A DNA stretch of 64,000 nt. Source: Candidatus Puniceispirillum marinum IMCC1322. Its GTDB lineage: Bacteria; Pseudomonadota; Alphaproteobacteria; Puniceispirillales; Puniceispirillaceae. Shown one piece after another: positions 14,514 to 37,020 of this stretch. How positions within the stretch are numbered: the stretch's first letter is position 1; each line of letters begins with the position of its first letter. The stretch lies in contig NC_014010.1 of NCBI RefSeq assembly GCF_000024465.1, positions 2,145,001 to 2,209,000 on the forward strand, given 5' to 3'. The notes below the pieces were generated by a model. That model ran no database searches and had not been told where the DNA came from. It worked only from the letters and a program-made list of their open reading frames with translations. A program made the translations under genes and the position numbers.

Positions 14514-14541
14514 CAATTTTTGGATCAGATGCGTTTAAAAA

Positions 14542-15428: not shown

Positions 15429-16058
15429 ATGAAAATGTTTCTTCGAAGGTCATGGGTCTATTCCCGCGTTTATGCGCCGATCAGAGATTTTTATAGCTGG
15501 TTTAAAAATGGGTTTACAAATAACAGCCCCGATCTGGTAAAGCGCCGTCTGTTGATGCGCCATGCAATTCATAATGCCACATTTGTTGAAACTGGAACGT
15601 TCTTAGGCAACACAACTGTGTTTCTGGCGAGCTTTTCAGCAAAAACCTATACAATTGAGCCTGAAGAAAAACTATATGAGATGGCACGTCAAAGGTTTGC
15701 TAATTCGCCAAAAATAGATGCTTTAAAGGGTACAAGTGAAGAAAGATTTCCTGAATTATTACCTTTACTATCTGGAGATATAAATTTCTGGCTAGATGGA
15801 CATTATTCGGGTGGCATCACGTTTAAAGGCGATAGTGAATGTCCTGTGGCGTCAGAACTCGAACAGATAGAAAAAAATCTCGTGCGTTTTGACAAGGTTT
15901 CAGTGCTGATCGATGATGTGCGTTGTTTTCCGCTTTCCCAATCATCTGCTTTGGATAAAAGTGACTACCCACCTCTAGATACATTGGTTGACTGGGCTAG
16001 ACGGAATAAGTTTTCCTGGCAAATTGAGCATGATATTTTTATTGCTAAAAATCATTGA
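15429..16058 (+). CDS. Putative class I SAM-dependent methyltransferase-like protein
   Basis: 209 residues. FVETGTFLGNTTVFLA (52-67) resembles the glycine-rich SAM loop and YTIEPEEKLYEMAR (74-87) the acidic end of strand 2, as in sugar or FkbM-like methyltransferases. INFWLDGHYSGG (118-129) and VLIDDVRCFP provide further acidic loops. It could O-methylate a sugar of the repeat unit (inference). A small AT-rich dyad (CCATT-AAA-AATGG, 15404-15416) lies just upstream. No closer family recognised. Confidence 0.55.
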   Translation: MKMFLRRSWVYSRVYAPIRDFYSWFKNGFTNNSPDLVKRRLLMRHAIHNATFVETGTFLGNTTVFLASFSAKTYTIEPEEKLYEMARQRFANSPKIDALKGTSEERFPELLPLLSGDINFWLDGHYSGGITFKGDSECPVASELEQIEKNLVRFDKVSVLIDDVRCFPLSQSSALDKSDYPPLDTLVDWARRNKFSWQIEHDIFIAKNH

Positions 16059-16110
16059 TGTTATCTGTATTCTGAACAACCTATCAAACACATATTCTTT
16101 TTAAACGACC

Positions 16111-19254: not shown

Positions 19255-19256
19255 TT

Positions 19257-20234
19257 ATGACTGAAAATGCCAAAATATTTGTTGCTGGTCATAATGGTAT
19301 GGTTGGTAGTTCGATAATCCGCCAGCTTACTGCTACTGGACATGGCAAGGACAGGATCATAACCCGTAATCGTGCAGACCTTGATTTAACCAATCAGGCT
19401 GATGTGCGTGCATTCTTTGAGGCTGAATTGCCGGATCAAGTCTATCTGGCGGCAGCAAAAGTGGGCGGTATATATGCCAATAATACATGGCCGGCAGATT
19501 TTATTTATCAAAACCTGATGATAGAAGCGAATGTGATAGACGCCGCATTTCGCGTGGGCGTTAAACGGTTATTGTTTTTAGGTTCAAGTTGTATTTATCC
19601 TAAACTGGCACCACAGCCGATGCAGGAAAATGTCCTGTTATCTGGTTCATTAGAGCCAACGAACGAGCCTTACGCCATTGCCAAAATTGCGGGCATCAAA
19701 CTTTGCGAAAGTTATAATCGGCAATATGGAGCTTCACACGGCATTGACTATCGCAGTGTCATGCCGACTAATCTTTATGGGCCAGGTGATAATTATGACC
19801 CGATGGGTAGCCATGTTGTTCCCGCTTTGATTGGTAGGTTTCACGAGGCCAAAATCAATCGCGATAGTGAAATTTTTATTTGGGGTAGCGGTAAACAGAA
19901 GCGCGAATTTCTGTTCGTAGATGATATGGCATCAGCCTGCATTCATGTCATGAATGCAGATAAAAATGCCTATGATGACTGCACCGAGCCAATGCTGTCA
20001 CACATCAATGTTGGTGTTGGTCATGACATTTCAATCGCCGAGCTTGCCCAAACAATTGCTAAGATTGTTGGTTACGAAGGTCGTATCAGTTACGATATAG
20101 ACAAGCCCGATGGGCCACCACGTAAACTGATCGATAGTTCGCTAATCCAGAGGTTAGGTTGGACGCCCAAAATAAATTTGGTTGATGGCCTACAACGCGC
20201 GTATAAAGATTTCTTAACACGACAACCTGCCTAG
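19257..20234 (+). CDS. fcl: GDP-L-fucose synthase
   Basis: 325 residues from the ATG at 19257. The NADP loop is [14 protein letters not shown]. The catalytic residues lie in [19 protein letters not shown] and [15 protein letters not shown] (Tyr-x3-Lys), and [20 protein letters not shown] is diagnostic for GDP-fucose synthases. It epimerises and reduces GDP-4-keto-6-deoxymannose to GDP-L-fucose. It works directly with Gmd, encoded 31 bp downstream, and with ManC at 27.2 kb. The order fcl-gmd is the reverse of the usual gmd-fcl order. Confidence 0.93.
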
Positions 20235-20265
20235 TTCTGACAGCAAATGATGCCAAAGGTTTAAA

Positions 20266-21384
20266 ATGACCAGAGTGATAAAAAAAACAGCATTGATTAC
20301 GGGCGTTACTGGTCAGGATGGTGCTTATCTTGCTGAGTTTCTATTATCAAAAAACTATATCGTTCATGGTATGAAACGCAGATCAAGCTTGTTTAATACG
20401 GATAGGATTGATCACCTCTATAAAGATCAGCATGAAAATGATGTGAATTTTTTTCTGCATCATGGCGATATGACTGATAGCTCAAGCCTGACGAGTATTA
20501 TCCAGAAAACACAACCTGACGAAATTTATAATCTGGCAGCGCAAAGTCACGTTGCGGTCAGTTTTGAAATGCCTGAATATACCGCTAATTCAGATGCGCT
20601 TGGCACATTACGTATACTCGAAGCTATACGAATGCTGGGCATGGAAAAGAAAACCAGGTTTTACCAAGCATCAACGTCTGAGCTGTATGGGTTAGTGCAG
20701 GAAACCCCGCAAAGTGAAACCACACCATTTTATCCAAGAAGCCCTTATGCAGTGGCAAAACTCTATGCCTATTGGATCACTGTTAATTATCGTGAGGCCT
20801 ATGGAATGTATGCTTGTAACGGCATTTTGTTCAATCACGAAAGTCCTATTCGCGGTGAAACATTCGTAACACGTAAAATCACCCGTGCGCTAGCGCGTAT
20901 AAAGCTTGGTTTGCAGGATTGTCTCTATCTCGGGAATCTGAATGCCATGCGCGATTGGGGACATGCGCGCGATTATGTTGAAATGCAGTGGTTAATGCTC
21001 CAACAAGATACAGCAGAAGATTTCGTGATTGCTACGGGGGTCCAACATAGTGTTCGCGATTTTGTAAATATAGCAGCTACAGAACTTGATATGGATATTG
21101 AATGGCAAGGCAATGGTGTTGATGAAGTTGCATATTTGAAAAATAGTGATCATGCCAGTTCAGAGAACAAACCTATCGTCGCTATTGACCCTCAATATTA
21201 CCGTCCTACTGAAGTCGAAACCCTAAAGGGTGATGCAACCAAGGCACGTGAAAAATTAGGCTGGATTCCAAAAACAAGCTTTAATGAATTAGTGCAGGAA
21301 ATGGCGACAGAAGATCTGGTTGCAGCAAAAGGAAATGCCTTGCTAGAAAACAGAGGCTTTAAAACCGTTAATAATGCCGAGTAG
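20266..21384 (+). CDS. gmd: GDP-mannose 4,6-dehydratase
   Basis: 372 residues. [20 protein letters not shown] is the NADP-binding start, followed by [19 protein letters not shown]. The catalytic blocks are [37 protein letters not shown] and [17 protein letters not shown], all characteristic of Gmd. It converts GDP-mannose to GDP-4-keto-6-deoxy-D-mannose, the substrate of Fcl (or of Rmd for rhamnose, not seen here). There is a run of eight A near the fourth to seventh codons, but the frame is intact. Confidence 0.95.
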
Positions 21385-21452
21385 GCTAGCATTTTGGTTT
21401 TAAATCCCATCCTCAACTTAAACATGAATCTAACTAAAGTTATATCAGCCTG

Positions 21453-23414
21453 ATGTGTGGTATTGCCGGATTTTTTGACCAGAAGGGTTTTGATGCCACT
21501 GCTGGGACGCAGCTTGCCAAAGATATGGCAAAAGCAATTATCCATCGTGGGCCCGATGATGCCGGCGTTTGGGTTGATGATGCCGCTGGAATAGCGCTCG
21601 CGCATAGACGCCTTTCGATTGTTGATCTGTCTGCCGCTGGGCATCAACCAATGTTGTCAGCATCCGGTCGCTACGTGCTTGCGTATAATGGGGAAATTTA
21701 CAATCATACAGAATTACGAAACGCATTAGAGGCGTCAGGTAAAGGATACGACTGGCGTGGGCACTCAGACACCGAAACGGCGCTTGCCTGTATCGAGGCC
21801 TATGGGCTGGAAGCAGCCTTGCAGCAATTCGTTGGTATGTTTGCGCTTGCCCTCTGGGATAAGCAGGAAAAAGCATTATACCTAGCGCGTGATCGCATTG
21901 GCGAAAAGCCACTTTATTTTGGTCGTCATAACAACATCTGGCTATTTGGATCAGAGCTAAAGGCGCTTCGCGTCCATCACGAATTTACCTCTGCTATTAA
22001 CCGTGATGCTTTATGCCTTTATCTACGGCATAATTATATTCCAGCTCCATATTCGATTTACGATGGCATAGGTAAATTGCCGCCTGGATCATATGTCCGG
22101 CTGGACGCGCATACAATTGATGCTGCTCCCGTTCCTTTTTGGACACTTGATGATAAGGTCTCTAATGGCAAGGCTAATGCTTTTGATGGTTCTGAAGCTG
22201 AGGCGCTTGATCATCTGGATAAAGTACTTTCCCGTGCGGTCAGGTTGCAAATGCAAGCAGATGTCCCTTTGGGGGCGTTTCTGTCAGGTGGTGTTGACTC
22301 ATCACTAATCGTCGCGTTGATGGCCGAACAAAGCGAACGAAAAGTAAAATCTTTTTCAATAGGGTTTGAGGATGCGCAGTTTGATGAAGCGCCATTTGCT
22401 AGGGATGTGGCCAATCATATAGGCACAGACCATCATGAGCTTTACGTTACGGCACAGGAAACTTTGGACGTAATACCCAAGCTACCAATGCTTTATGATG
22501 AGCCATTCTCTGACTCATCACAGATACCAACTTTCCTAGTGTCACAAATTGCCCGCCAGCATGTTACCGTGTCACTTTCAGGCGATGCTGGCGACGAATT
22601 ATTTGGGGGTTACAATCGCTATACATGGGGGCGTTCTATCTGGAATAAGATGAACAAAGTACCTCATCCTTTGCGTTCGGCAATGGGAACCGGTATCGGT
22701 ATGCTGTCTCCCAAAGCATGGAATGCTATCATGGTGCCGCTAATGAATATGGTGCCACAAAAATATCAACAGAAAAATCCGGGGGATAAACTGCATAAGG
22801 CCGCAGGCATGTTTTCGGCCAAAGCACCCGAAGATATTTATAAATATCTGGTTTCGCACTGGCCTGATCCGGCTGCGATTGTGCTTGGCGGGACTGAACC
22901 TCAAACTACCCTGACCTCATCACATGATGTGATGGATGATATGCCGTTCGAGGCGCGGATGATGTATCTTGATATGCTGAGTTATTTGCCAGACGATATT
23001 CTTGTAAAAGTTGATCGAGCCGCTATGGGTGTGTCGCTGGAAACGCGCGTTCCATTTCTGGATCACAATGTGGTTGAGGCCGCATGGCAGTTACCTATGA
23101 ATATGAAAATCCGTAATGGCACCGGTAAATGGTGCTTGCGAGAGCTTTTATATCGCCGGGTACCAAAACATCTTATTGAGCGGCCAAAGATGGGGTTTGG
23201 CGTGCCTCTCGATGCGTGGTTGCGAGGACCTTTGCGTGACTGGGCCGAACATCTGCTTGATGAAAAACGTTTGGCACAGGCCGGATTTTTTGACCCTGCC
23301 CCCATTCGCAAAAAATGGGACGAACATCTGTCAGGTGCCAGAAGCTGGCATTATTATATCTGGGATATTCTGATGTTCGAAGCATGGCGTGACGAACAAG
23401 GTGGATGTGGATAA
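21453..23414 (+). CDS. asnB: Asparagine synthase-type glutamine amidotransferase
   Basis: 653 residues. The N-terminal Ntn glutaminase starts at Cys2 (MCGIAGFF) with RRLSIVDLSAAGHQPM, LAYNGEIYNHTELR and RDRIGEKPLYFG. The synthetase domain has the PP-loop FLSGGVDSSLIVALMAEQ, SLSGDAGDELFGGYNRY and a C-terminal KMGFGVPLDAWLRGPL block. The basic reaction is glutamine-dependent amidation of a carboxylate through an adenylate. In polysaccharide loci such enzymes can amidate a uronic acid rather than aspartate. With TviB in the same locus this copy may make a hexosaminuronamide (inference); free asparagine synthesis remains possible. Confidence 0.85.
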   Translation: MCGIAGFFDQKGFDATAGTQLAKDMAKAIIHRGPDDAGVWVDDAAGIALAHRRLSIVDLSAAGHQPMLSASGRYVLAYNGEIYNHTELRNALEASGKGYDWRGHSDTETALACIEAYGLEAALQQFVGMFALALWDKQEKALYLARDRIGEKPLYFGRHNNIWLFGSELKALRVHHEFTSAINRDALCLYLRHNYIPAPYSIYDGIGKLPPGSYVRLDAHTIDAAPVPFWTLDDKVSNGKANAFDGSEAEALDHLDKVLSRAVRLQMQADVPLGAFLSGGVDSSLIVALMAEQSERKVKSFSIGFEDAQFDEAPFARDVANHIGTDHHELYVTAQETLDVIPKLPMLYDEPFSDSSQIPTFLVSQIARQHVTVSLSGDAGDELFGGYNRYTWGRSIWNKMNKVPHPLRSAMGTGIGMLSPKAWNAIMVPLMNMVPQKYQQKNPGDKLHKAAGMFSAKAPEDIYKYLVSHWPDPAAIVLGGTEPQTTLTSSHDVMDDMPFEARMMYLDMLSYLPDDILVKVDRAAMGVSLETRVPFLDHNVVEAAWQLPMNMKIRNGTGKWCLRELLYRRVPKHLIERPKMGFGVPLDAWLRGPLRDWAEHLLDEKRLAQAGFFDPAPIRKKWDEHLSGARSWHYYIWDILMFEAWRDEQGGCG

Positions 23415-24538
23415 TGTCCAAAAAGCGTGTGTTGTTCGTTATATCCGAAGACTGGGCATTTATCTCACACCGCCTGCATCTGGCTGATGCGGCAATTAAA
23501 GCGGGCTATGAAGTGGGATTGTTAACCCGCGTTACCATTTATGGTGACATGCTTGAAGCCAGAGGCATCAAATTATTTCACTGGGATCTTAACCGCGGTT
23601 CACTGAATCCTTTTGTCGCATTAGGCACTGTCTGGCAGGCGGCTAAACTGTTTCGGAGCTGGCAACCTAATCTTATTCATGCGGTGGCACAGAAACCAAT
23701 CCTATATGCCGGCATAGCGGGTAAGCTTGCCTATCACTGCCCACGGGTTAGTGCGATGGGGGGCATCGGTTTTATTTTCAGTTCACAATCCACAAAAGCA
23801 GGATTACTTCGCCCACTTATATCCCGTTTGCTTCGTTGGGCAATTAACGGCACCAGAACGCGGTTTATTCTGCAAAATGACGATGATATTGCTCTACTCA
23901 GGAAGCTAGGTGTTGCCAGGATTGAGACAGTAAGGCGTATTAAGGGATCAGGCGTTGAGATTGACGATTTCAAACCTAGTCCTCTGCCCAAAGGCACACC
24001 AATGGTAATCCTGCCGGCACGTCTATTATGGGATAAGGGCATCGCTGAATTTGTAAGAGTGGCAATGCGGATAAAGGCCAAAGGGATTGATGTCCGTTTT
24101 GTTCTAGTTGGCGACCCTGACCCTAACAACGCCGCTTCGATTCCAGAATATCAGGTGCAAGAATGGGTTGACAGTGAGGCTGTCGAACGCTGGGGACGAC
24201 GTGATGATATGCCCGATATCTATCCGCAATCATCAATCGTGTGTTTGCCATCCTATCGCGAAGGTCTACCCAAGGTATTGCTGGAAGGTGCCAGTTGTGC
24301 CAGGCCAGTTGTGGCTTTTGATGTGCCAGGATGCCGCGAAATTGTCCGTGATGGCATAAATGGATTTTTGGTACCATTTGGCGATGAAACGGCATTAGAA
24401 TTGGCGTTAATCAAGTTGATTCAAGACTCAAAATTATGTGCTGAGATGGGCAAAGCAGGACGTAAAATTGTCGAAGCTGAATTTTCACAAAACATCATCG
24501 CGGCTGAAACCTTTTCGGTATGGGACGAAGTTTTATAA
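23414..24538 (+). CDS. Glycosyltransferase family 4 (WbpL/PglA-like neighbourhood)
   Basis: 374 residues from the ATG at 23414, sharing one base with the asnB stop (TAATG). RVLFVISEDWAFISHRLHLA at the N-terminus and LIHAVAQKPILYAGIAG are typical of the GT4 subfamily found directly before small PglC-like transferases (PglA type). The donor region holds VILPARLLWDKGIAEFVRVA and LPSYREGLPKVLLEGASCAR with the E-x7-E motif, then RPVVAFDVPGCREIV. It likely adds the second sugar to the product of the next gene. It is translationally coupled to it (TAATG). Confidence 0.85.
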   Translation: MSKKRVLFVISEDWAFISHRLHLADAAIKAGYEVGLLTRVTIYGDMLEARGIKLFHWDLNRGSLNPFVALGTVWQAAKLFRSWQPNLIHAVAQKPILYAGIAGKLAYHCPRVSAMGGIGFIFSSQSTKAGLLRPLISRLLRWAINGTRTRFILQNDDDIALLRKLGVARIETVRRIKGSGVEIDDFKPSPLPKGTPMVILPARLLWDKGIAEFVRVAMRIKAKGIDVRFVLVGDPDPNNAASIPEYQVQEWVDSEAVERWGRRDDMPDIYPQSSIVCLPSYREGLPKVLLEGASCARPVVAFDVPGCREIVRDGINGFLVPFGDETALELALIKLIQDSKLCAEMGKAGRKIVEAEFSQNIIAAETFSVWDEVL

Positions 24539-25101
24539 TGGTGAAGCGTAGCCTTGATATTCTTTTGTCATTAATCGCTGCGGCAATATTCATTATCCCC
24601 TGCCTGATCATTGCGATATTGATAAAAGCAACCTCACCGGGCCCAATATTTTACGTATCCAAGCGTGTTGGTCAGAATGGCAAGCTATTTACCATGCCAA
24701 AATTTCGTACCATGCGCACTGACACACCTGAACTCGCAACTGATAAATTAGGTGATCCAACGACCTATTTAACGCCGATTGGCGGTTTTCTGCGCAAAAC
24801 AAGTCTTGATGAGCTGCCGCAGATTATCTCCGTCTTGCTTGGGCATATGAGCCTTGTTGGGCCGCGACCTGCATTATTTAATCAGACTGATCTAATTACT
24901 CAACGACAGAAGCGCGGCATTGATAATTTACGACCTGGCATTACGGGCTGGGCACAAGTGAATGGCCGCGATGACATCGCGTCAGATATCAAGATTCAGT
25001 TAGATGCCGAATATATGGCACGGCAATCACTTTGGTTTGATATAAAAATTATGCTAATCACCATCTACGCAGTGGTTAGCCGAAAAGATATTTCGCATTG
25101 A
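24538..25101 (+). CDS. Small PglC-like phosphoglycosyltransferase (bacterial sugar transferase)
   Basis: 187 residues, the minimal catalytic size of monotopic PGTs. One N-terminal re-entrant hydrophobic helix is present ([20 protein letters not shown]). Motifs are [38 protein letters not shown] with the catalytic Asp-Glu pair, LVGPRPAL and [14 protein letters not shown]. It moves a sugar-1-phosphate from a UDP-sugar to undecaprenyl phosphate and so begins a repeat unit. Together with the WecA-like gene at 7.1 kb this makes two initiating enzymes of unrelated folds in one locus. Confidence 0.9.
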
Positions 25102-25149
25102 TCTTTTGTCACGATAAATTTCACAAACAGTATTATAACTTTAATATCC

Positions 25150-27072
25150 ATGGAAAATAACCTTCGACTTCATATTCTGGCTTTGCCACGCTTTACCAAG
25201 CGGCTTGTCGTCATGCTTGTTGATGCGCTTTTGGCTGTCATGTCAGTATGGATAGCTTTCTATTTGCGCGTGGGAGAATTTCTGTCGTTATTCACCCAAA
25301 GTGCCGAACATTTTCCTCCTAGCGCTGTTATCGGTGCCGTATGTTTGTCTATTCCAATTTTCATGGCTATGGGGCTATATCGAACAGTTTTCCGTTATTC
25401 AGGTGGATCTGCGTTGATTGCTGTTGGGCAAGCCTGCGCTTTTTATAGCTTGGTATATATAACAATCTTCACTGCAATAGGTATCAGCGGTGTCCCTAGA
25501 ACTGTTGGGATAATTCAGCCATTAATATTGTTTATTCTGATAGCCGGTTCGCGCGTGAGCGCGCGTTTATGGCTTGGTGGATTGTATGATGAACAATTAA
25601 AGCAAAATAAAGTTAAGCGTTCTCTGATTTATGGTGCGGGGGTAGCCGGACGCGAGTTGGCAGCGGCTCTTGCGCATAATGTTGAGATTAAGATCGTAGG
25701 CTTTCTGGATGATGACAAAAGTTTACATGGACGTAAAATACGCGGCCTGAATGTATATGACCCCAACACTATCAGTAACATCAGCAAAAAAAAGAATATA
25801 AGCGAGGTTATGCTTGCAATGCCGAGTGTTGGCCGGCAAAGGCGTAATAAGATTTTATCTAAACTTCGTGGAGCTAATCTTGCGGTGCGGACGCTTCCAA
25901 GTTACTCGGATCTGGCTCAAGGGCGCGTAACAGTAAATGACATCCGGGAACTGTCTATTGATGACATTCTAGGCCGTGATATTGTCACGCCAGACCCCGA
26001 ATTAATGAGTGCTGATATTACAGATAAAGTGGTCTTGATAACAGGCGCTGGTGGTTCGATTGGTGGAGAATTGTGTAAACAAATAATCAAGCAAAAACCA
26101 TCAAAGCTTTTGCTTTTTGAACAAAGTGAATTTGCGCTTTATTCTATTTTGGGAAGTCTTGAAACAGCACTTCAAGAGAATATTTCCGATGCTAGCTGTG
26201 CGCTAGTGCCAATTCTTGGATCTGTCACTGACAAAGGACTATTGGAAACAACATTCAAAGAATATCAACCGCAGACAATATATCATGCCGCGGCTTATAA
26301 GCATGTGCCGCTTGTAGAGAGTAACCCACTTGTGGGCATTCAGAATAACGTATTTGGTACTTTACTTTGTGCCGAAGCTGCTATTGACGCTGGTGTCAAA
26401 AAATTTGTCCTGATTAGCACTGACAAGGCAGTCCGCCCAACTAATGTAATGGGCGCGAGCAAACGTATCGCCGAAATGATTTTACAGGCGCTTGCAGAAG
26501 AACAAGTCACGACAACATTTGCCATGGTTCGTTTTGGAAATGTTCTCGATTCTTCTGGGTCTGTTGTACCGCTATTCCGCGAACAGATAAAAGCAGGTGG
26601 TCCAGTAACAGTGACGCATAAGGATGTAACCCGCTACTTCATGACGATATCCGAAGCGGCACAACTGGTTATTCAGGCTGGTGCGATGACTCAAACCATA
26701 TCATCAAAAAAAAGTGCACCTCTATATTTATTGGATATGGGCTCACCGATAAAAATTTATGATCTGGCGAAGCGAATGATAGAATTGTCAGGGTTGAGTC
26801 TGATTTCTGACTCAATCGCAGATGGTGATATAGAAATAAATTTTATAGGTTTGAGATCAGGTGAAAAACTTTATGAGGAATTACTTATTGGTGACTCAGT
26901 AATGAGTACATCACATCCAAAAGTTAAGGTTGCCAATGAAGTGTTTTTGAGTTGGGGTACATTACGGGGTCATCTTGAACAACTTGAAACGTCGGTTGTT
27001 AACAGTGATCTCGATTTGCTTCATGCTATATTGGTTGCATTAGTGTCAGGGTATCAACCCAAATCAAATTAA
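25150..27072 (+). CDS. Membrane-bound UDP-GlcNAc 4,6-dehydratase (CapD/WbpM/PglF family)
   Basis: 640 residues, the full-length membrane form. Four hydrophobic segments lie in the first about 135 residues, followed by a nucleotide-binding domain (SLIYGAGVAGRELAAALAHN, then GFLDDDKSLHGRKI). A C-terminal SDR domain starts at VVLITGAGGSIGGELCKQII and contains YHAAAYKHVPLVE, FVLISTDKAVRPTNVMGASK and MVRFGNVLDSSGSVVPLF. It makes UDP-4-keto-6-deoxy-GlcNAc for sugars such as QuiNAc, FucNAc or bacillosamine. A partner aminotransferase or reductase is not in the window. Placed after the PglC-like gene, as in many glycosylation loci. Confidence 0.9.
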   Translation: MENNLRLHILALPRFTKRLVVMLVDALLAVMSVWIAFYLRVGEFLSLFTQSAEHFPPSAVIGAVCLSIPIFMAMGLYRTVFRYSGGSALIAVGQACAFYSLVYITIFTAIGISGVPRTVGIIQPLILFILIAGSRVSARLWLGGLYDEQLKQNKVKRSLIYGAGVAGRELAAALAHNVEIKIVGFLDDDKSLHGRKIRGLNVYDPNTISNISKKKNISEVMLAMPSVGRQRRNKILSKLRGANLAVRTLPSYSDLAQGRVTVNDIRELSIDDILGRDIVTPDPELMSADITDKVVLITGAGGSIGGELCKQIIKQKPSKLLLFEQSEFALYSILGSLETALQENISDASCALVPILGSVTDKGLLETTFKEYQPQTIYHAAAYKHVPLVESNPLVGIQNNVFGTLLCAEAAIDAGVKKFVLISTDKAVRPTNVMGASKRIAEMILQALAEEQVTTTFAMVRFGNVLDSSGSVVPLFREQIKAGGPVTVTHKDVTRYFMTISEAAQLVIQAGAMTQTISSKKSAPLYLLDMGSPIKIYDLAKRMIELSGLSLISDSIADGDIEINFIGLRSGEKLYEELLIGDSVMSTSHPKVKVANEVFLSWGTLRGHLEQLETSVVNSDLDLLHAILVALVSGYQPKSN

Positions 27073-28664: not shown

Positions 28665-29408
28665 CTAGCTTGGGTGCTCGTAGTTAATCAGACGGTCAAG
28701 CACCACGCTGATGAGCGCATAGAGCGTCACCGACATAACCCCTAATGTCAGCATCGCGGCAAACATCAGATCGGTTTTCACCCGCCCATTGGCCAGTAGC
28801 ATCAGATAGCCCAGCCCCTGTGACGACCCGACCCACTCGCCTATGGTTGCGCCAATCGGGGCATAGACCGCGGCCAGCTTCAATCCCGATGCCAATGATG
28901 GTAGCGCAGCCGGAATCCGGATTTTCAGCATGATATGCCGGGTATTGGCGCCCATTGTCTGTGCCAGATCCAGATAGCCGCGCGGCGTCTTCATCAGCCC
29001 GTCGAAAAAGGCCGAAGTGACAGGAAAAAAAATAATCAGCACGGCCATTGCGATCTTCGACCCCAGCCCATAGCCAAGCCATAGCGTCAGGATCGGCGCC
29101 AGCGCAAAGACTGGTAATGCCTGGCTGAAAACGAGTATTGGCCGCAGGAACAACCGCGCCGATGCCGACATGGCCAGTTGGATCGCCGTGATCACGCCAA
29201 GGCCAGCGCCAATGACCAGACCGACAAGCACCTCAATCAAAGTGACCACGGCATGTTCGGCAATCAGCGCACGGCTACCCCATAATGTATCCAGAACACG
29301 CATCGGGGCTGGCAGAATATAGCCGGGCAAACCGGTCAGGCTGACAATCATTTGCCAGACGATAATCACCGCCGCCAGCGCGGCCGCTGTATAGATCACA
29401 CTGCGCAT
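28665..29408 (-). CDS. thiX: ABC transporter permease, thiamine-pyrimidine precursor uptake
   Basis: 247 residues with about six membrane segments and the BPD-permease EAA loop GANTRHIMLKIRIPAALPSL followed by GLGYLM. It resembles permeases of the nitrate/taurine/HMP (SsuC/ThiX) class. It is last in the thiamine operon, sharing TGATG with the ATPase gene and downstream of the ThiY-type binding protein. The likely substrate is an aminopyrimidine such as formylaminopyrimidine or hydroxymethylpyrimidine, by operon context. Confidence 0.85.
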   Translation of the reverse strand: MRSVIYTAAALAAVIIVWQMIVSLTGLPGYILPAPMRVLDTLWGSRALIAEHAVVTLIEVLVGLVIGAGLGVITAIQLAMSASARLFLRPILVFSQALPVFALAPILTLWLGYGLGSKIAMAVLIIFFPVTSAFFDGLMKTPRGYLDLAQTMGANTRHIMLKIRIPAALPSLASGLKLAAVYAPIGATIGEWVGSSQGLGYLMLLANGRVKTDLMFAAMLTLGVMSVTLYALISVVLDRLINYEHPS

Positions 29409-30136
29409 CAGCCGGCACTCCGTAATTGCGTCAACAAGGTGCTTTGCAAAGCCAGCACGTCTTTATCGGCAAAGGATCGCGGCAATGGCGGCGACAGGCT
29501 GTCAGCGGTTTCAAGCCCCTGTGACGACATGATATAGATGACATGCCCCAGCCGTGCGGCTTCGCCGGGATCATGTGTGACAAGTAAAATTGTCCTGCCA
29601 TCAAGCATTTCGGCGGCCAGTTCCTGCATTTCTGATCGTGTACGCGAATCAAGCGCTGAAAACGGCTCATCCAGCAGGACGATAGGCCGGTCTTCCATCA
29701 ATGTTCGCGCCAAAGCCGCGCGTTGCCGTTGCCCGCCAGACAATGTGGCGGGTTTTTTTTGTTTGTGCGCTGTCAATCCGACGCGGGCAATGATCGCTTC
29801 GGCTTTGTCCTTGTCGGCGGTCTGTCCGCGTAAATGCGCGCCAAGGCAGACATTGTCCAAAACGCTGGCCCATGGCAACAACAAATCAGTTTGCGCCATA
29901 TAGGCGATCCGCCCACGTAGCGGCGTGTTATCGCTGGCGGTGATCTGCCCGTCAAAAATGGCCGCCGTATCAAGTCCGGCGATCAACCGCAGGATGGTGG
30001 TTTTGCCAACACCCGAAGAACCCAGCAGACAGGTCCAGCTTTGCGCGGCCATAGTCAGGTCAAGCTGGCCAAACAGGGGGCGTCCCTCCAGCATGGCAGC
30101 ACCAGACAGATGTACTGATGGCGCGGCTAAGGTCAT
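29408..30136 (-). CDS. thiZ: ABC transporter ATPase, thiamine-pyrimidine precursor uptake
   Basis: 242 residues. Walker A is GSSGVGKTT, with Q-loop YMAQTDLLLPW, signature LSGGQRQRAALARTL, Walker B PIVLLDEPFSALD and H-loop LLVTHDPGEAARLG. This is the NrtD/SsuB/ThiZ class of import ATPases. It overlaps tenA by 4 bp (ATGA) and thiX by 1 bp, so it is co-translated with both. It energises import of the pyrimidine precursor through ThiX. Confidence 0.87.
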   Translation of the reverse strand: MTLAAPSVHLSGAAMLEGRPLFGQLDLTMAAQSWTCLLGSSGVGKTTILRLIAGLDTAAIFDGQITASDNTPLRGRIAYMAQTDLLLPWASVLDNVCLGAHLRGQTADKDKAEAIIARVGLTAHKQKKPATLSGGQRQRAALARTLMEDRPIVLLDEPFSALDSRTRSEMQELAAEMLDGRTILLVTHDPGEAARLGHVIYIMSSQGLETADSLSPPLPRSFADKDVLALQSTLLTQLRSAG

Positions 30137-30846
30137 CCCTTCAGGCCCATCTGCCAGAAAGCAACTTCCAGTTCGGTAGCGGTACGAAACCGGTCACAAA
30201 GCGCGTGCCAGCGTGGCGTGGCCTCGGCAGTGGTGCCTAGCTGTGTGGTGATGGCATTATCGATCAACAAACCAACATCACGGCATAATGCTTGATATTC
30301 GTCACTGGCGTAGGTGTTGATCCAGTCACCATAGTCAGCTGCAGGCTTCGACGCGGCAAGCCGTGCGCCAATTTCACCATAGCCCATAACACAAGGTGCC
30401 AAAGCCGCCAGCAAATCCAGAAAATCACCGGAATAGCCTGCTTCCAGAACATAACGCGTATAGGCGATGTTCTGGGGGGCTTCGCGTGTGGTGGATAATT
30501 CCTGTTCGCTGATCCCTTCGGCGGCACAGATGCGCACATGAAGCTGCATTTCATCATGTATAAGGGCATGAACGGTGGCTGACGCCGCTTTCATCTCCTC
30601 CAGGTTGTCTGACTTGACAATGGCCAATGCCCAGGCGCGTGAGAAATGCGTCAGAAAGATATAATCCTGCCGCAGATAATGTAAAAATGCCGCACGAGGC
30701 AATCGGCCATCAGCAAGTCCAGTCACAAAATCATGCTGTGTATAGGCCTGCCATGGCACCGTACATGCGGCGCGCCACTGGTCGAAATAATGCCCGTAAC
30801 ACGGAGTGCTGATTACAGTGCCATGCGAAGTTTCGTTCATAATCAT
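30133..30846 (-). CDS. tenA: TenA aminopyrimidine aminohydrolase (thiaminase II), intact active site
   Basis: 237 residues, all-helical TenA fold. The catalytic set can be seen by comparison with Bacillus TenA: Asp in YLRQDYIFL, Tyr in NIAYTRYVL, the nucleophilic Cys followed four residues later by Tyr in LAPCVMGYGEIG, and the late Glu in ATELEVAFWQMG. It hydrolyses aminomethyl- or formylamino-pyrimidine from degraded thiamine to HMP for ThiD. It lies between the Ser-variant paralogue and thiZ. This is the catalytically competent copy of the pair. Confidence 0.9.
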   Translation of the reverse strand: MIMNETSHGTVISTPCYGHYFDQWRAACTVPWQAYTQHDFVTGLADGRLPRAAFLHYLRQDYIFLTHFSRAWALAIVKSDNLEEMKAASATVHALIHDEMQLHVRICAAEGISEQELSTTREAPQNIAYTRYVLEAGYSGDFLDLLAALAPCVMGYGEIGARLAASKPAADYGDWINTYASDEYQALCRDVGLLIDNAITTQLGTTAEATPRWHALCDRFRTATELEVAFWQMGLKG

Positions 30847-30902
30847 CCTGTCAAATAGTGATGTGATATTATGACAAGATAAAGCTAACTTGAAAGAGGC
30901 AT

Positions 30903-31613
30903 TTACCCCGAAAGGCTCATATCTAGGAAATTAACTTCCAATTTTGTGGTGATACGGAAACGGTCACAAAGCGTTTGCCATCGTTCTGTTGTCATGGCGT
31001 CGGCACCTAACCTTTGAACAATCGCGTCATCAATCACCCTTCCGATATGATGACATGACACCTGATGATTTTTATCGGTGTAAGTCGTGATCCATCGTTG
31101 GTACTTAGGTGCCGTTTTTAATGATGCTAGAAAGCTACCAATCTCTGCATAGCCCAGAAAAGATGGTGATAATACAGCCATCAAATCTATGAAGTCACCT
31201 GACGCCCCGACATTCTCAAAATGCTTCAAATAGGCCGTGGTTGCTGGGTTTTCGGTTGTTTCAAATAATTTCTGGGTATCAATGCCCTCGTCATTACATA
31301 GTTCGATATGCATTTGCAGTTTTGAATTGATCAGCTGATGCATCATGGCAGTTGCCATGCGTATTTCTGAAATATCACTGCCCTTACTCGTTATCTGCCC
31401 CCATGCACGGGCGAACTGAAGCAGAAATATATAATCTTGTCGTAGAAAATACACAAAATTCTTAGGTGGCAGACTACCGTCGGCCAGAGATAAGAAGAAT
31501 TTATGCTGTATAAAGGCGTGCCATTGTGTGGCACAGGTGATGCGCCATTGGTCGAAATGACGCCCATAATATGGGGCGTCATTTCCATTTTTTGATCCAC
31601 GCCCTAGTATCAT
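30903..31613 (-). CDS. TenA paralogue with the nucleophilic cysteine replaced by serine
   Basis: 236 residues, clearly related to the neighbouring TenA over its whole length (HFDQWRITCATQWHAFIQHK, YFLRQDYIFLLQFARAW). The active-site block reads LSPSFLGYAEIG, so the nucleophile is Ser where TenA has Cys. INSKLQMH replaces IHDEMQLH (Glu to Lys), and FLDM replaces FWQM. The early Asp, the two Tyr and the late Glu remain. It is AT-richer than its neighbour and separated from it by 56 bp. It may be a non-hydrolytic binding or regulatory protein, or an enzyme with shifted chemistry. Its start shares TAATG with the thiY stop. Confidence 0.85.
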   Translation of the reverse strand: MILGRGSKNGNDAPYYGRHFDQWRITCATQWHAFIQHKFFLSLADGSLPPKNFVYFLRQDYIFLLQFARAWGQITSKGSDISEIRMATAMMHQLINSKLQMHIELCNDEGIDTQKLFETTENPATTAYLKHFENVGASGDFIDLMAVLSPSFLGYAEIGSFLASLKTAPKYQRWITTYTDKNHQVSCHHIGRVIDDAIVQRLGADAMTTERWQTLCDRFRITTKLEVNFLDMSLSG

Positions 31614-32560
31614 TAATTCCCTTCAGTAACATCAATCGCAATATCAGACACATTATTAGTTGATTTAATCAGCCCCGCGTCAAAAAGAAAAGACTCAAAT
31701 TGAGAGTAACGTCCTGCATCAAGTGCGGCAGGGCGCAGGGCAAAGCGCGGCAATGTATCAAACCAGGCACGATTATTCAGCTCATCCTGTAATTCGGGTG
31801 ATGTGGCTGAAAAAATTTCCCAGCTTTTCTGTGGGTTGTTGATAATGAATTGCGTTGCTAGTTCGGTGGCTTTCAAAAAGCGAACCATTTTGTCCTTGTC
31901 CATTTTTGCGGGATTGGCGACATAGATCAACTCGTCATAGGGAGGCACACCTTCTTCCTCAATATAGAAACAGCGTCCCTTTACATTCTCGATATCCATC
32001 TGGTTGAGTTCGAAATTACGAAACGCGCCGATAACCGCATCAACCTGACCTGACATCAAAGCAGGTGATAGTGAAAAATTCACATTGATAAGTTCAATAT
32101 CATCAAGCGTCACATCATAACGTCCCAGCACCGCCGCCAGTAAAGCCTCTTCAACACCAGCGACCGAAAAGCCGATCTTGCGATCTTTCAAATCAGCAGG
32201 TGTCTTGATCGGGCCATCCTCTAGAACCAGAAGACAGTTCAGCGGTGTGGCAACCAATGTGCCTACGCGTTTTAATGGCAGGCCTTCATGCACTTGCAGA
32301 TGCAGTTGCGGTTGATAACTAACAGCAAGATCAGCATGACCAGCGGCGACAAGTTTTGGCGGGGCAGACGGATCAGCCGGGGCAACGATTTCGACCTCAA
32401 GACCGGCATCGGCAAAATAGCCATTTTCCTGTGCGATGATAAGCGGGCCATGATCCGGATTGACAAACCAGTCCAGCAATACGGTCATCTTGTCGGCGGC
32501 ACCAGCGGGGCTGGCTACCAGAAAGGCCAGAATGATAAAGGGTTTTAATAAAAGTCGCAT
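31613..32560 (-). CDS. thiY: Periplasmic pyrimidine-precursor binding protein (NMT1/THI5-like)
   Basis: 315 residues. A signal peptide (about 1-21) ends at GAA. The mature start MTVLLDWFVNPDHGPLIIAQ with NGYFADAGLEVEIV is diagnostic of the NMT1/THI5-like family, including ThiY, the formylaminopyrimidine-binding protein. AAGHADLAVSYQPQLHLQV and DRKIGFSVAG are further family segments. It delivers the ligand to ThiXZ. It lies 15 bp after thiF. The yeast-THI5-style histidine/cysteine active-site signature is absent, so it is a transporter subunit and not an HMP synthase. Confidence 0.88.
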   Translation of the reverse strand: MRLLLKPFIILAFLVASPAGAADKMTVLLDWFVNPDHGPLIIAQENGYFADAGLEVEIVAPADPSAPPKLVAAGHADLAVSYQPQLHLQVHEGLPLKRVGTLVATPLNCLLVLEDGPIKTPADLKDRKIGFSVAGVEEALLAAVLGRYDVTLDDIELINVNFSLSPALMSGQVDAVIGAFRNFELNQMDIENVKGRCFYIEEEGVPPYDELIYVANPAKMDKDKMVRFLKATELATQFIINNPQKSWEIFSATSPELQDELNNRAWFDTLPRFALRPAALDAGRYSQFESFLFDAGLIKSTNNVSDIAIDVTEGN

Positions 32561-32575: not shown

Positions 32576-33553
32576 TTAAGTGGCAGCGACGAGAGCGATC
32601 TCGCCGTTCCATTTTGGGTGAATTATATGCGCCGCCCGCCATGCCCGCAGGCCTGACCGACAGCATAGAACAACACGGCTATATGCCGTATCAGTGGGAA
32701 ATTGCGTTGCGATGGTGGCAACGTCAAAACGGCGTGCGTTTGGGGTAACGGGTATGGGTGCCTCATCCATGCCGCGTAGCTCGACAACAAAATCATCGTC
32801 TCTGATCGCGCTTGCATCAATAAAGCTATGTATCGTGGTGGGTTCTGGCGCTTCATCAAACCGGAAATGCGCTGTGCGCATAGTGCTGGCATCATACCGT
32901 ATCAAATGGCCAAGCGGTGATGGTATAAGACCCAAAGCGATTGTTAGGGCCATCTGCGCCTGCAAACTGCCCAGCACGCCAACAACCGGGCCCAGCACAC
33001 CGGCACTTGCACAGCTGGCCAGATCTGCTGGTAAATCTGGAAACACCGCGCGCAATGACGGCGCCATGCCACAAAACCCGCCAACATAACCACCCATGCC
33101 AAGTGCCGAAGCGCTGATAAAAGGGGTCGCGCTATCACGGCAGATATCCGACAGGATATAGCTTGCGGCAAAACTGTCAGCACAATCTAGAACGATATCC
33201 GCCATTGCCACCAGACCATCCGCATTCAGCGGGGTCAGCTTCTGGTTAATCGCGGTGACATCTATCTCATGATTCAGATGGCTACAAAATTTTGCTGCAA
33301 GCTCCGCTTTTGACTGGCCAATCTGGCTTTGCGTGAACAGGGTCTGGCGATGCAGATTGCTGGCCGATACAAGATCATGGTCAATGATCGTGATATGGCC
33401 GATACCGGCGCCTGCTAGATATGACAATACAGGGGCGCCAAGCCCGCCAGCACCAACCACCAGCATCTTGACGGTGGCCAGCTTTGCCTGCCCGTCGGCA
33501 CCAATTTCGGGCAGGATCATCTGGCGGTCATAGCGGTCAGATAGCGGCATCAT
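32576..33553 (-). CDS. thiF: ThiF/MoeB-type adenylyltransferase with a rhodanese-like tail
   Basis: 325 residues. The E1-like domain shows RYDRQMILPEIG, the nucleotide loop VVGAGGLGAPVLSYLAGAGI, DHDLVSASNLHRQTLF and CASAGVLGPVVGVLGSLQAQ. A C-terminal domain of about 85 residues ends in the rhodanese active-site loop VVLCCRSGLRAWRAA. It should adenylate the ThiS C-terminus and help load sulfur for thiazole formation. The two zinc-binding C-x2-C pairs of MoeB/ThiF are missing (the first is replaced by MAPSLRAVF). It overlaps thiE by 4 bp. Confidence 0.87.
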   Translation of the reverse strand: MMPLSDRYDRQMILPEIGADGQAKLATVKMLVVGAGGLGAPVLSYLAGAGIGHITIIDHDLVSASNLHRQTLFTQSQIGQSKAELAAKFCSHLNHEIDVTAINQKLTPLNADGLVAMADIVLDCADSFAASYILSDICRDSATPFISASALGMGGYVGGFCGMAPSLRAVFPDLPADLASCASAGVLGPVVGVLGSLQAQMALTIALGLIPSPLGHLIRYDASTMRTAHFRFDEAPEPTTIHSFIDASAIRDDDFVVELRGMDEAPIPVTPNARRFDVATIATQFPTDTAYSRVVLCCRSGLRAWRAAHIIHPKWNGEIALVAAT

Positions 33554-34146
33554 CGCGTCACCTCAAGCCAGCTTTTCACACGCGCTTCGGGGTCGTCATG
33601 CAATGTTATGTCGGTAACAACCGAAATAATATCGGCTCCCGATTCAAACACCCCGGCCGCGCGATCAACGCGCATCCCGCCAATCCCGACCAGTGGAATA
33701 GCGCCAATACGCGCTTTCCATTCGGTTACCCTTGGTAGCCCTTGCTGATGCCATTTCATTTTTTTCAGAATGGTTGGATAGACTGGCCCAAGTGCCAGAT
33801 AATCAGGCGCAAAACCAAGTGCCCGTTCCAGCTCGTCATCATCATGCGTACTAAAACCAAGCCTGATGCCCGCGCGGCGAATGGCATTCAGGTCTGCATT
33901 ATCCATATCTTCTTGGCCTAGATGTACCCAGTCGCATCCAGCATCGATGGCGATATGCCAGTAATCATTGACTACCAGCACGGCACCATGCGCATCACAT
34001 AACGCCTTTGCTTCGACAATCTCACGGCGCACTATATCCAGTGGTGCATCCTTGATCCGTAACTGGACTAATTTAACACCAAGCGGCAACATCCGCCGGA
34101 GCCAGTCGCAACTGTCAAAAATTGGATAAAAGCGGTCAAGGGTCAT
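33550..34146 (-). CDS. thiE: Thiamine-phosphate synthase
   Basis: 198 residues, TIM barrel. Recognisable blocks are [68 protein letters not shown] and IPLVGIGGM. It couples HMP-pyrophosphate from ThiD with thiazole-phosphate from ThiG to give thiamine phosphate. The loop after the fifth strand, [13 protein letters not shown], replaces the usual T-x-TK form and matches the proteobacterial subgroup in which the thi operon carries thiOSGE together. It overlaps both neighbours by 4 bp. Confidence 0.92.
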
Positions 34147-34913
34147 GATAAAAAGGCCTGTCCGATAACGGGGGTTGATGGACTTGCCATATCGCGCGGT
34201 TCCATCGGTTCGGCACTGGCGGCACGCTGGCCAGCTTGAATGGCTTCGGCCATCGCTATGGCCATTTGTTCAGGGTCGCCAGCCTTGGCAACAGCGGTAT
34301 TGAGCAGTACCGCATCAAACCCCAGTTCCATCGCGCGGGCGGCATGGCTTGGCAGGCCAATACCGGCATCAATTACCATCGGCACATCCGGAAAGCGTGC
34401 CCGTAACGCCCGCAATCCATATTCGTTGTTCAACCCCATGCCCGATCCGATGGGCGCCCCCCATGGCATCAGAACCTCACATCCCGCACCAAGCAGCTTT
34501 TCGGCTACAACCAGATCTTCAGTGCAATAGGGAAAGACCTTAAAACCGTCATCACATAGAATGCGGGCGGCTTCAACCAGACCAAACACATCAGGTTGCA
34601 AACTGTCAGTATCGCCAATCACTTCCAGCTTGATCCAGTCAGTCGCGAAAACCTCGCGTGCCATATGCGCGGTTGTTACCGCTTCCTTGACATTATGGCA
34701 TCCGGCGGTATTGGGCAGTATCGGTATATCTAGCCCGCGGATTATGTCCCAGAATGGCTGTCCGGCACCACCACTACCCTCACGGCGCAGTGATACGGTG
34801 GCTACCGCCGCCTGTGATGATCGGAATGCCGCCTCAAGAATCGCAGGTGAAGGATATTGTGCCGTCCCAAGCATCAGGCCGTTAGCAAGCTCGGTATCAT
34901 AGAAACGCCGCAT
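34143..34913 (-). CDS. thiG: Thiazole synthase
   Basis: 256 residues, TIM barrel of the ThiG family. The Schiff-base lysine is in [57 protein letters not shown] and [20 protein letters not shown] are signature segments. It forms thiazole phosphate from deoxyxylulose phosphate, the dehydroglycine from ThiO, and sulfur from the ThiS thiocarboxylate. One base separates it from thiS and it overlaps thiE by ATGA. Confidence 0.95.
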
Positions 34914-34914: not shown

Positions 34915-35109
34915 TTAACCTCCCTGCATGGGGGCTAGGATTTCGACACGGTCACCAGCCTGTAATATGGCTGTATCGCGGTGGCTGGCAGGCACAAATT
35001 CTTCATTCAGCGCTGTTGCCACCTTGCCATCATAGGCAAGCTCTGCGAGCAGGGCGGCGATAGTGGTGGCCGCGACCTCCACGCTCTCTCCGTTAACCGA
35101 AAGTTTCAT
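34915..35109 (-). CDS. thiS: Sulfur carrier protein ThiS
   Basis: 64 residues from the ATG at 35109, ubiquitin-like fold. It ends in the required Gly-Gly (APMQGG), which is adenylated by ThiF and converted to a thiocarboxylate. [20 protein letters not shown] and DRVEILAP are typical ThiS segments. A longer in-frame start at 35208 lies deep within thiO and gives an unlike extension. The start overlaps the end of thiO by 17 bp, implying translational coupling. Confidence 0.93.
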
Positions 35110-36073
35110 CGACAAAGGCCCCCCGGATATTATCAAGATATAGATCGGCAACCTGCCGTGCCAAGCTTGGTGCCAGCAGATAGCCATGCCGAAACAGGCC
35201 ATTGGCATATATCACCTGACCCGCCCGCCGAATTTTTGGCAGATTGTCATTAAAGGCAGGGCGTAAATCAACGCCGGTTTCCAGAATTTCGGCTTCGCCA
35301 AAGGCTGGATTGAGTGCATAGGCGGCGCTGAGCAATTCCAGCATTGAGCGCGCTGTAATACGCTGGCTGTCTTGGCTTTCAATCATGGTCGCGCCCAGCA
35401 TATAAATGCCATCGCCGCGCGGAACGATATAAAGCGGCATACGCGGATGTAGCAAACGTACCGGCCGTGTCATTGCAATGTCATCACTACGGATAATCAA
35501 CATCTCGCCTTTGACGCCGCGCAAATCCGCCATGCTGTCGCGCGCACTCAAACCACGGCAGTCAATATAGCGGTTAAGCGAAGCTGGCGTGGTGCTGGCA
35601 ATCATTTCGGCACCTGCCTGTACCAGCGACTCATAAAGGTCGGATAAGGCCTGTCTGGGGTTGATATGTGCTTCATCGGCAAAAAACAGCCCACGGGGAA
35701 AACGCGTGCCAAGATCAGGTTCCAATCTTGCGATGGCATCCGCATCAAGCGTTTCATGCGCTTCGGTCAGCCGGGCAAAACGGTTAAGGTCAGCTGTATC
35801 GCGAGCTGATGCCAGCACCAGCGATCCACGTGTCACCACCTTGGTGCGCTGTTGCCACCATCCGGTGGCCTGGCTTCCGAAAATACGCACAGGTTCTTCG
35901 GCGCTTTCGGACTCGCAAAACGGGGCTAGCATGCCACCTGCCCACCATGAACAGCCATGCGGGCCGGGCTTGCCAGCCTTGTCATAGATGCGCACCTGCA
36001 CACCGCGGGCAACAAGCTCGCTGGCGACACAAAGACCAGCAACACCGCCACCAATGATTGAGATATCATCCAT
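35093..36073 (-). CDS. thiO: Glycine oxidase (FAD-dependent)
   Basis: 326 residues from the ATG at 36073. The FAD loop is ISIIGGGVAGLCVASELVAR, followed by GSWWAGG-type residues (CSWWAGGMLAPFCESE). FFADEAHINPRQALSDLYES, IDCRGLSARD and NGLFRHGYLLAPSLARQVAD are typical of ThiO. It oxidises glycine to the imine used by ThiG, which marks an oxygen-dependent thiazole route (ThiO rather than ThiH). Its ATG lies inside the end of thiD (8-bp overlap). Confidence 0.92.
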   Translation of the reverse strand: MDDISIIGGGVAGLCVASELVARGVQVRIYDKAGKPGPHGCSWWAGGMLAPFCESESAEEPVRIFGSQATGWWQQRTKVVTRGSLVLASARDTADLNRFARLTEAHETLDADAIARLEPDLGTRFPRGLFFADEAHINPRQALSDLYESLVQAGAEMIASTTPASLNRYIDCRGLSARDSMADLRGVKGEMLIIRSDDIAMTRPVRLLHPRMPLYIVPRGDGIYMLGATMIESQDSQRITARSMLELLSAAYALNPAFGEAEILETGVDLRPAFNDNLPKIRRAGQVIYANGLFRHGYLLAPSLARQVADLYLDNIRGAFVDETFG

Positions 36074-36872
36074 TAGCCCACAACTCATGAAAGTGATGAA
36101 CGGGACCATGCCCGCTACCTATGTTGAGATTGTCTGCCGCCTTGATCGCCCCTTGCAGATAGGTATGAGCCTGCGTCACGGCGTCAGCCATATCCAGACC
36201 ACGTCCCAAGCCTGCCGCTACGGCAGATGACAGGGTACAGCCGGTGCCATGCGTGTTGACAGTATCGCGGCGCGGCGCGGTCAGGCGAAGTGGCGAATGT
36301 TTCACGTGAAACAAAATATCGGTGCATATATCCGCATTGCCATGCCCGCCTTTCATCAGCACGGCATTGGCGCCGCTGGCAAGTAGCGCATTGCCCTGTG
36401 TCTGCATCTGCCCTTCATCATCGGCTTGCGGCACCCGCAGAAGATGCGCCGCTTCAGGCAAATTCGGCGTCAGCAGGCTGGCGCGCGGCACCAGCCTTTC
36501 CAGAAGATGTGCCACGGCATCATCAGCCAGCAGGGCGTCACCTGATTTAGCGATCATCACCGGATCAAGCACGATATGTCCGTTAAAATCGGCAAGGCTG
36601 TCGGCGACCACATCGATCACGGCGCGGTTTGCCAGCATACCGATTTTGATGGCTTTGACATCAAGATCGGACAGCACAGCGTCGATCTGCCGGGCAATCA
36701 CATCAACAGGAATGGCATGAACAGCCGTTACGCTTTTGGTGTTCTGGGCGGTGACTGCGGTGATGACACTGGCACCATAGACGCCCAAGGCGCTGAAAGT
36801 TTTCAGATCAGCCTGAATACCGGCACCGCCGCCACTATCAGAGCCTGCAATTGTCAGAACAATATCACTCAT
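36066..36872 (-). CDS. thiD: Hydroxymethylpyrimidine / HMP-phosphate kinase
   Basis: 268 residues, ribokinase fold. Blocks are VLTIAGSDSGGGAGIQADLK, GVYGASVITAVTAQNT, KIGMLAN, LDPVMIAKSGDALL, LLTPNLPEA, LMKGGH and the anion-hole NTHGTGCTLSSAVAAGLGRG. It phosphorylates HMP twice to HMP-pyrophosphate, the partner of thiazole-P for ThiE, and so accepts HMP released by TenA. It is the first gene of the operon, about 58 bp after the TPP riboswitch, which therefore controls the whole unit. Confidence 0.95.
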   Translation of the reverse strand: MSDIVLTIAGSDSGGGAGIQADLKTFSALGVYGASVITAVTAQNTKSVTAVHAIPVDVIARQIDAVLSDLDVKAIKIGMLANRAVIDVVADSLADFNGHIVLDPVMIAKSGDALLADDAVAHLLERLVPRASLLTPNLPEAAHLLRVPQADDEGQMQTQGNALLASGANAVLMKGGHGNADICTDILFHVKHSPLRLTAPRRDTVNTHGTGCTLSSAVAAGLGRGLDMADAVTQAHTYLQGAIKAADNLNIGSGHGPVHHFHELWANG

Positions 36873-36929
36873 AAGGTTACACTTCGTCAGCTATTTCGAC
36901 GCGCGATTACCGGATAAGAGCGGAGTTAT

Positions 36930-37016
36930 ATCCGTTTCCTACGCCGGCATTGCCCGGATCAGGTTCTATGGGTTAGCCAGACGGCCTCTCAGTTCACATG
37001 AACACCCCAACGGTTA
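36930..37016 (-). ncRNA. TPP riboswitch (THI element)
   Basis: On the minus strand the conserved pieces appear in order: GGGGTGTTC, CTGAGAGG (pyrimidine sensor), ACCC, GAACCTGATCCGGGCAATGC (pyrophosphate sensor) and GGCGTAGGAA. This is the canonical THI-box consensus. It begins just downstream of a promoter and precedes thiD. The 58-nt expression platform has no clear intrinsic terminator, so control probably acts by hiding the ribosome site or by Rho (inference). Confidence 0.97.
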
Positions 37017-37020
37017 TTCG

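Follow-up and report, generated by a model that had tools for sequence, protein, structure and literature searches.

A TenA paralogue with serine in place of the catalytic cysteine in a thiamin operon of Candidatus Puniceispirillum marinum

In Candidatus Puniceispirillum marinum IMCC1322, an operon headed by a TPP riboswitch holds two tandem genes of the TenA family, the first-transcribed of which encodes a protein with serine in place of the catalytic cysteine. This protein (the Ser copy) is a real and unusual TenA_C paralogue, found in one genome so far and most likely still under selection, with either an altered specificity or a binding or partner role as its possible function. With moderate confidence, we read it as a paralogue of TenA that is under selection and altered in its chemistry, and not as a relic. 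The benefit of multiple tenA copies is described as unknown in a passage of PMC10470507, and a Ser-form copy beside an intact enzyme offers a direct test of substrate division among such copies, as well as of whether serine can replace the nucleophile in nature; it would be of little importance if the Ser copy is only a relic.

The operon and its salvage setting

The window analysed here (the whole stretch of 64,000 nucleotides from contig NC_014010.1) carries the operon on its minus strand (Table 1), with the Ser-form gene placed between a thiY-like gene and the ordinary tenA, upstream of the latter. Its start has one base in common with the thiY stop (TAATG), and 56 bases separate it from the Cys-form gene. 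This overlap, within an operon under a TPP riboswitch, argues for the Ser copy being a selected paralogue. The frame called thiG-like had no ThiG match in NCBIfam, with weak matches to other families, and its name is our assumption from position; likewise, the thiY-like protein is presumed, from synteny, to be of the HMP-precursor type.

Table 1. Features of the operon in the window, from its head onwards
Feature	Position	Strand	Basis
TPP riboswitch RF00059, operon head	36919..37019	-	Rfam 74.8 bits, gathering 54.3
thiD, HMP/HMP-P kinase	36066..36872	-	TIGR00097 317.9 bits, above cut-off
thiO-like glycine oxidase	35093..36109	-	TIGR02352 239.5 bits, just below cut-off 250.8
thiS sulfur carrier	34915..35208	-	TIGR01683 66.1 bits, above cut-off; listed ORF, real start probably more internal
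thiG-like thiazole synthase (putative)	34143..34913	-	ORF; name from position
thiE, thiamin phosphate synthase	33550..34146	-	NF000734 354.3 bits, above cut-off
thiF-like adenylyltransferase	32576..33553	-	TIGR02356 242.6 bits, below cut-off 275.25
thiY-like substrate-binding protein, ABC importer	31613..32560	-	SsuA_fam 68.5 bits, below cut-off
Ser-form TenA (P0002)	30903..31613	-	PF03070; Ser151 for catalytic Cys, Lys98, Leu129, Leu230
Canonical Cys-type TenA (P0001)	30133..30846	-	TIGR04306 thiaminase II 144.7 bits, above cut-off 130
ABC ATPase, thiZ-like	29408..30136	-	ABC ATPase matches, none above equivalog cut-off; synteny
ABC permease, thiX-like	28665..29408	-	ABC permease matches, none above cut-off; synteny

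Beside the operon, window positions 11845-27072 hold a run of open reading frames at 38-48% G+C, most operon genes lying at 51-57%. Judged by their translations, the last frames of this run resemble sugar-transferase and sugar-nucleotide enzymes.

ThiC (PF01964) was found in 0/136 genomes of the order, and in 0/43 of the subset with completeness of 90% or more and contamination of 5% or less; the control was positive in 13/14 known genomes. Judged by these gene contents, the organism seems to lack synthesis of the B1 pyrimidine moiety. Given the lack of ThiC in the order, together with TenA and a thiXYZ-type importer, the pyrimidine is probably imported, as HMP or as its amino or formylamino forms. 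The lack of ThiC also makes pyrimidine salvage probably important, which favours a selected Ser copy. Across the order, pyrimidine auxotrophy seems to be general and TenA salvage patchy, PF03070 being present in 40/136 genomes; many of the 136 are incomplete. Pyrimidine fragments of B1 taken up from outside seem to sustain marine bacteria that have no ThiC. According to a passage of PMC12262181, many subclades of SAR116 carry transport genes for thiamin or HMP, not both.

The two TenA copies compared

Both copies are full-length and match PF03070, the Ser copy at 106.9 bits and the Cys copy at 152.3 (Pfam gathering 22). The Ser copy falls below the thiaminase II cut-off that its neighbour passes, with 93.6 bits, a point against its being a selected paralogue. 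The two proteins align over 223 residues with no gaps, at 47% identity, and their catalytic motifs read LSPSFLGYAEIG in the upstream Ser copy and LAPCVMGYGEIG in the downstream Cys copy. Relative to its neighbour, the Ser copy also has Lys98 for Glu99, Leu129 for Thr130 and Leu230 for Trp231. These four positions were compared across 196 other rows of TenA_C. The set includes the Cys-form neighbour, counts some genomes twice because two collections contain them (L007 and L151 are identical), and is not wholly alphaproteobacterial (L197 is of the Burkholderiaceae by its title); 15 Cys-less second TenA proteins (the second gene of L032 and 14 others) and the fragment L100 were dropped from it. 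In this set the position of Ser151 is Cys in 196/196, that of Lys98 Glu in 196/196, that of Leu230 Trp in 196/196, and that of Leu129 Thr in 195/196. By its defining residue, the Ser copy is not a TenA_C member.

The substrate pocket has otherwise been kept. In the multiple alignment the Ser copy retains Asp60, Tyr128, Tyr155, Tyr178 and Glu226, equivalent to B. subtilis Asp44, Tyr112, Tyr139, Tyr163 and Glu205, the last of these correspondences being drawn from the multiple alignment. Tyr139 and Tyr163 are presumably pyrimidine or catalysis residues, and the Cys135Ser mutant of B. subtilis TenA has reportedly lost its activity. Phenylalanine at the position of B. subtilis Tyr47 is no peculiarity of the Ser copy, being present in both copies and in 118/118 other rows. 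The retained set argues for selection, as B. subtilis Asp44, Tyr112 and Glu205 are described in a part of PMC5623701 as holding the pyrimidine or mattering in catalysis.

These comparisons bear out the preliminary description, made from the sequence alone, which had reported a tandem TenA pair at 30133-31613, alignment of the copies along their length, serine for cysteine in the first-transcribed copy, the Glu-to-Lys and Trp-to-Leu changes, and an otherwise intact pocket. To these, the change of Thr130 adds a fourth lost near-invariant residue, absent from that description.

Departures extend well beyond the active site. Two counts were made of departures at columns with 90% conservation or more: in one, the Ser copy departs at 15 of 56 columns and the neighbour at 1; in the other, the Ser copy departs at 16 of 57, the most among 117 rows (the next row has 12). 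A lone chance change or a sequencing error as the source of the serine is ruled out, because the departures already number 15 of 56 columns in the smaller count. The number of departures is also consistent with a relic.

AlphaFold2 gave a mean pLDDT of 95.0 for the Ser copy and 96.2 for the Cys copy, both folds having used an alignment of relatives, which raises confidence. The best solved match to the predicted Ser-copy structure is the TenA 3mvu (Z 35.3, rmsd 1.2, 225 aligned), and B. subtilis TenA 1yaf is matched with Z 27.7. The Ser copy is, in this high-confidence model, a TenA fold, which favours a selected paralogue and weighs against a relic.

Distribution, origin and constraint of the Ser copy

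No Ser-form TenA was found in the other genomes searched (order, n = 136; class sample, n = 385; best 80 of 553 profile-scan relatives), the residues having been read except at 25 weaker places (2 in the order search, 23 in the class sample), and nothing on a Ser-form TenA of SAR116 was found in the literature searched. A conserved Ser-form clade, for which the preliminary description had suggested a phylogenetic check, did not emerge from these searches. One genome of the 136, this one, has two matches to the query at E 1e-5 or better, and its genus consists of one genome. Closest outside matches reached 43% identity in the order (n = 136), 42% in the class sample (n = 385 genomes), and 46% in a profile scan of genome_contigs, among the matches listed (the best 80 of 553 relatives), where the matched TenA has Cys in 80/80 loci. 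Scans of genome_contigs and viral_contigs with P0002 alone gave no confirmed relative, these being exact-short-peptide scans that also missed ordinary TenA and are therefore of little weight. Confinement to a single genome among those searched speaks for a relic and against a selected paralogue.

With the Pfam model, weak second PF03070 matches (40-42 bits) were seen in two other genomes of the order, at G009:C8:12270-12851 and G034:C11:16495-17055, each on a contig other than that of the tenA locus, and G010 has a weak PF03070 match only.

In the 14 loci of L003-L058 showing thiY-tenA-thiZ, a thiY-like gene of 67-82% identity precedes tenA and, in all of them, a single tenA lies between thiY and thiZ; the same is true of 70/80 loci of L121-L200 (the best 80 of 553 relatives). 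The relatives' operon thus has one tenA at this place, and the Ser gene is therefore an extra gene in this lineage. That relatives manage without a second copy tells against a role as non-catalytic partner, in which the Ser protein would be a pyrimidine-binding or structural pseudoenzyme, joining the Cys TenA in mixed oligomers or handing pyrimidine over from importer to enzyme. Such a role would suit a protein that has lost the catalytic Cys but retained the contact residues and a predicted TenA fold, and whose gene adjoins that of the intact enzyme in one operon with the importer; we nevertheless regard it as unlikely when taken alone.

The extra gene presumably arose by duplication. Consistent with this, the top identity of the Ser copy is to its neighbour (45-47%) and the two genes are in tandem. 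Transfer from a TenA lineage outside the sample, rather than local duplication, is improbable, yet phylogeny gives it some room. Trees of 80, 27, 26 and 48 rows, together with six one-clade tests, left the Ser copy without a fixed sister: the neighbour, the wider clade to which the neighbour belongs, and three other groups were all tolerated as its partner (none rejected, p-AU 0.17 to 0.45 in the six tests). When the neighbour was removed from the tree, the nearest rows were different and the Ser branch lengthened from 3.11 to 3.82. Shared rare residues were rejected as a pointer to the neighbour, which has 9 in common with the Ser copy against 11 for L200; L197 and L006 have 10 each, and L044 and L036 have 9 each. 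That these residues are no commoner with the neighbour is compatible with transfer, but L200, L197 and L006 sit in the neighbour's wider clade.

Base composition fits more than one history. The Ser gene, at 43.6% G+C, is the lowest of ten operon genes measured (others 47.7-57.1%), and by codon position it has 0.489, 0.392 and 0.426, compared with 0.588, 0.466 and 0.534 in the neighbour. A value below the rest of the operon is in keeping with transfer and with a relic alike. As a sign of foreign origin, however, it is not telling, as 9/51 window open reading frames of at least 190 codons (stop counted) are equal or lower, the Ser gene itself included.

The main rival of a selected paralogue is a weakly constrained relic on its way out, its frame kept by chance, by recent relaxation or by translational coupling to the neighbouring genes. 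The Ser frame is stop-free, as well as gap-free, at 53% divergence from its neighbour. Neutral simulation from the neighbour gene, in 300 runs for each level of amino-acid change, left 32 runs without a stop at 15% and 18 at 25%; at 35% the mean was 4.3 stops and 9 runs had none, and at 45% and 53% the means were 5.7 and 6.5, every run having at least one. The copies differ at 11/47 columns at least 95% conserved, compared with 60/96 columns less than 50% conserved, so that a gradient from conserved to variable positions is retained. Because there is no stop, and conserved columns are more constrained than variable ones, neutral drift along the whole Ser branch is unlikely; a recent relaxation may still have occurred. 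The earlier view that the copy is 'not simply decaying' is supported by these two results and by the high-confidence TenA fold, and the relic reading as a whole is judged unlikely.

Some of the same data nonetheless fit relaxed constraint. All 11 of the changes at the 47 columns at least 95% conserved are losses in the Ser copy, with 0/47 in the neighbour, and the end branch of the Ser copy measures 2.55, 3.11 and 3.65 changes per site in three trees, compared with 0.38, 0.34 and 0.45 for the neighbour, a branch ~7-9 times as long. Codon models were fitted to 10 sequences over 221 gap-free columns and were saturated, four-fold sites being identical between the copies at 13/43. The one-ratio fit (lnL -6317.61) placed the Ser branch at its bound, and in the two-ratio fits L004 was at its bound. 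With these saturated branches, the best fit had omega 0.21 on the Ser branch and 0.0135 elsewhere (lnL -6314.99), but omega = 1 on the Ser branch did nearly as well (lnL -6316.25), which a relic would allow, and no value from 0.02 to 1.0 fell more than 1.3 log-likelihood units below the best. A rate claim from dN/dS was dropped because synonymous sites are saturated. The preliminary description had named, as marks of a decaying duplicate, a Ser copy unique to this genome and dN/dS near 1: the former holds among the genomes searched, while for the latter neutral and strongly constrained values of omega fit alike.

Possible roles and relation to known TenA systems

A selected, altered paralogue would most likely work as follows. 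A second TenA_C-type gene, with thiY on one side and the ordinary tenA on the other in a pyrimidine-salvage operon, encodes a protein that keeps the predicted TenA fold and the pyrimidine-holding residues, and has lost the catalytic Cys and three invariant or near-invariant residues during much faster evolution than that of its neighbour. This protein would still bind an imported B1 pyrimidine (AmMP, FAMP or some related product of breakdown). It might then either hydrolyse this pyrimidine at an altered rate or specificity or serve as a non-catalytic partner, with the neighbouring Cys copy presumably carrying out the standard AmMP-to-HMP step. Of the roles suggested in the preliminary description, binding of a pyrimidine without cleavage, action on a different amine, or a mixed oligomer with the intact TenA may each apply.

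Pairs of a Cys TenA and a Cys-less TenA-family protein also occur elsewhere. In 14/80 loci (of the best 80 of 553 relatives), a Cys TenA lies between thiY and thiZ and a second, Cys-less TenA-family gene follows thiZ (14 loci of L121-L200, among them L136, L138, L143, L156 and L160). L032 is likewise arranged, its second gene lying at L032:162-785. The second proteins of the 14 loci share 25-30% identity with the Cys TenA of the window, and carry Ala-Glu-Trp (in one case Ala-Glu-Gly) where the Cys would stand, with Ala then Glu in 14/14. Tyr112 is replaced by Phe and Tyr163 by His in 14/14; the Asp is kept in 14/14 and the late Glu in 13/14, the remaining one being uncovered there. Among solved structures, S. 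pneumoniae 1z72 is the nearest to the Cys-less protein of L160. The role of this Cys-less second gene beside a Cys TenA seems to deserve separate study. As a repeated arrangement, apparently reached here by another route, such pairs support the reading of the Ser copy as a selected paralogue.

The pairs further suggest an altered hydrolase, in which Ser- or water-based chemistry would act on another pyrimidine, for example FAMP, in parallel to the rhodobacteral Cys-less TenA. Of 79 columns at least 95% conserved among 80 rows of TenA_C, 21 are altered in the Ser copy and 47 in the Cys-less group, with 17 altered in both compared with 12.5 expected (P 0.017), a weak overlap in which the columns are non-independent and the substituted residues mostly differ. 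Where the Ser copy has Lys98, Glu is present in 94/94 other rows, Cys-less paralogues included (loci of the best 80 of 553 relatives), so this substitution counts against both an altered hydrolase and, more broadly, a selected paralogue. With plant TenA_E reported, in passages of PMC10470507 and PMC5635689, to act on FAMP, an altered hydrolase is possible, if doubtful. A broader proposal is offered only tentatively and is rather unlikely: that in a marine pyrimidine auxotroph a TenA_C duplicate has become a Cys-less partner of its neighbour, which would either act on a different B1 breakdown product by way of serine or water or hold the pyrimidine as a subunit, paralleling the rhodobacteral Cys-less TenA.

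Four known systems invite comparison. With TenA_C (thiaminase II TIGR04306; 3mvu of Silicibacter sp. TM1040, and B. subtilis 1yaf/1yak), the Ser copy has in common the predicted fold, the pyrimidine-contact residues and an operon with a thiXYZ-like importer; it differs in having Ser for the defining Cys, Lys98, Leu129 and Leu230, and in lying under the equivalog cut-off. The rhodobacteral thiY-tenA-thiZ-tenA operon resembles that of the window in holding a Cys-less TenA partner, but there the Cys-less gene is downstream of thiZ, whereas the Ser copy is near TenA_C and its gene is upstream of tenA. The Ser copy, moreover, retains Tyr128 and Tyr178 where the rhodobacteral group has Phe and His, has Phe152 after Ser151 where that group has Glu, and is without the Glu98 that the group retains.

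TenA_E of plants, algae and archaea lacks the active-site Cys, as does the Ser copy, and has as its hallmark two conserved Glu residues, according to a passage of PMC5635689. Set beside this published description, the Ser copy keeps Glu226 and has Phe152 where the Cys-less rows have Glu. Finally, a TenA of the brown anemone has Ser at the Cys135 position, the sole exception among 48 aligned proteins in the part of PMC10277260 that describes it, and therefore the substitution itself was already known. By that description, the anemone protein is like the Ser copy in its Ser at the Cys place, but it is an animal protein of a Bacteroides-like TenA group.
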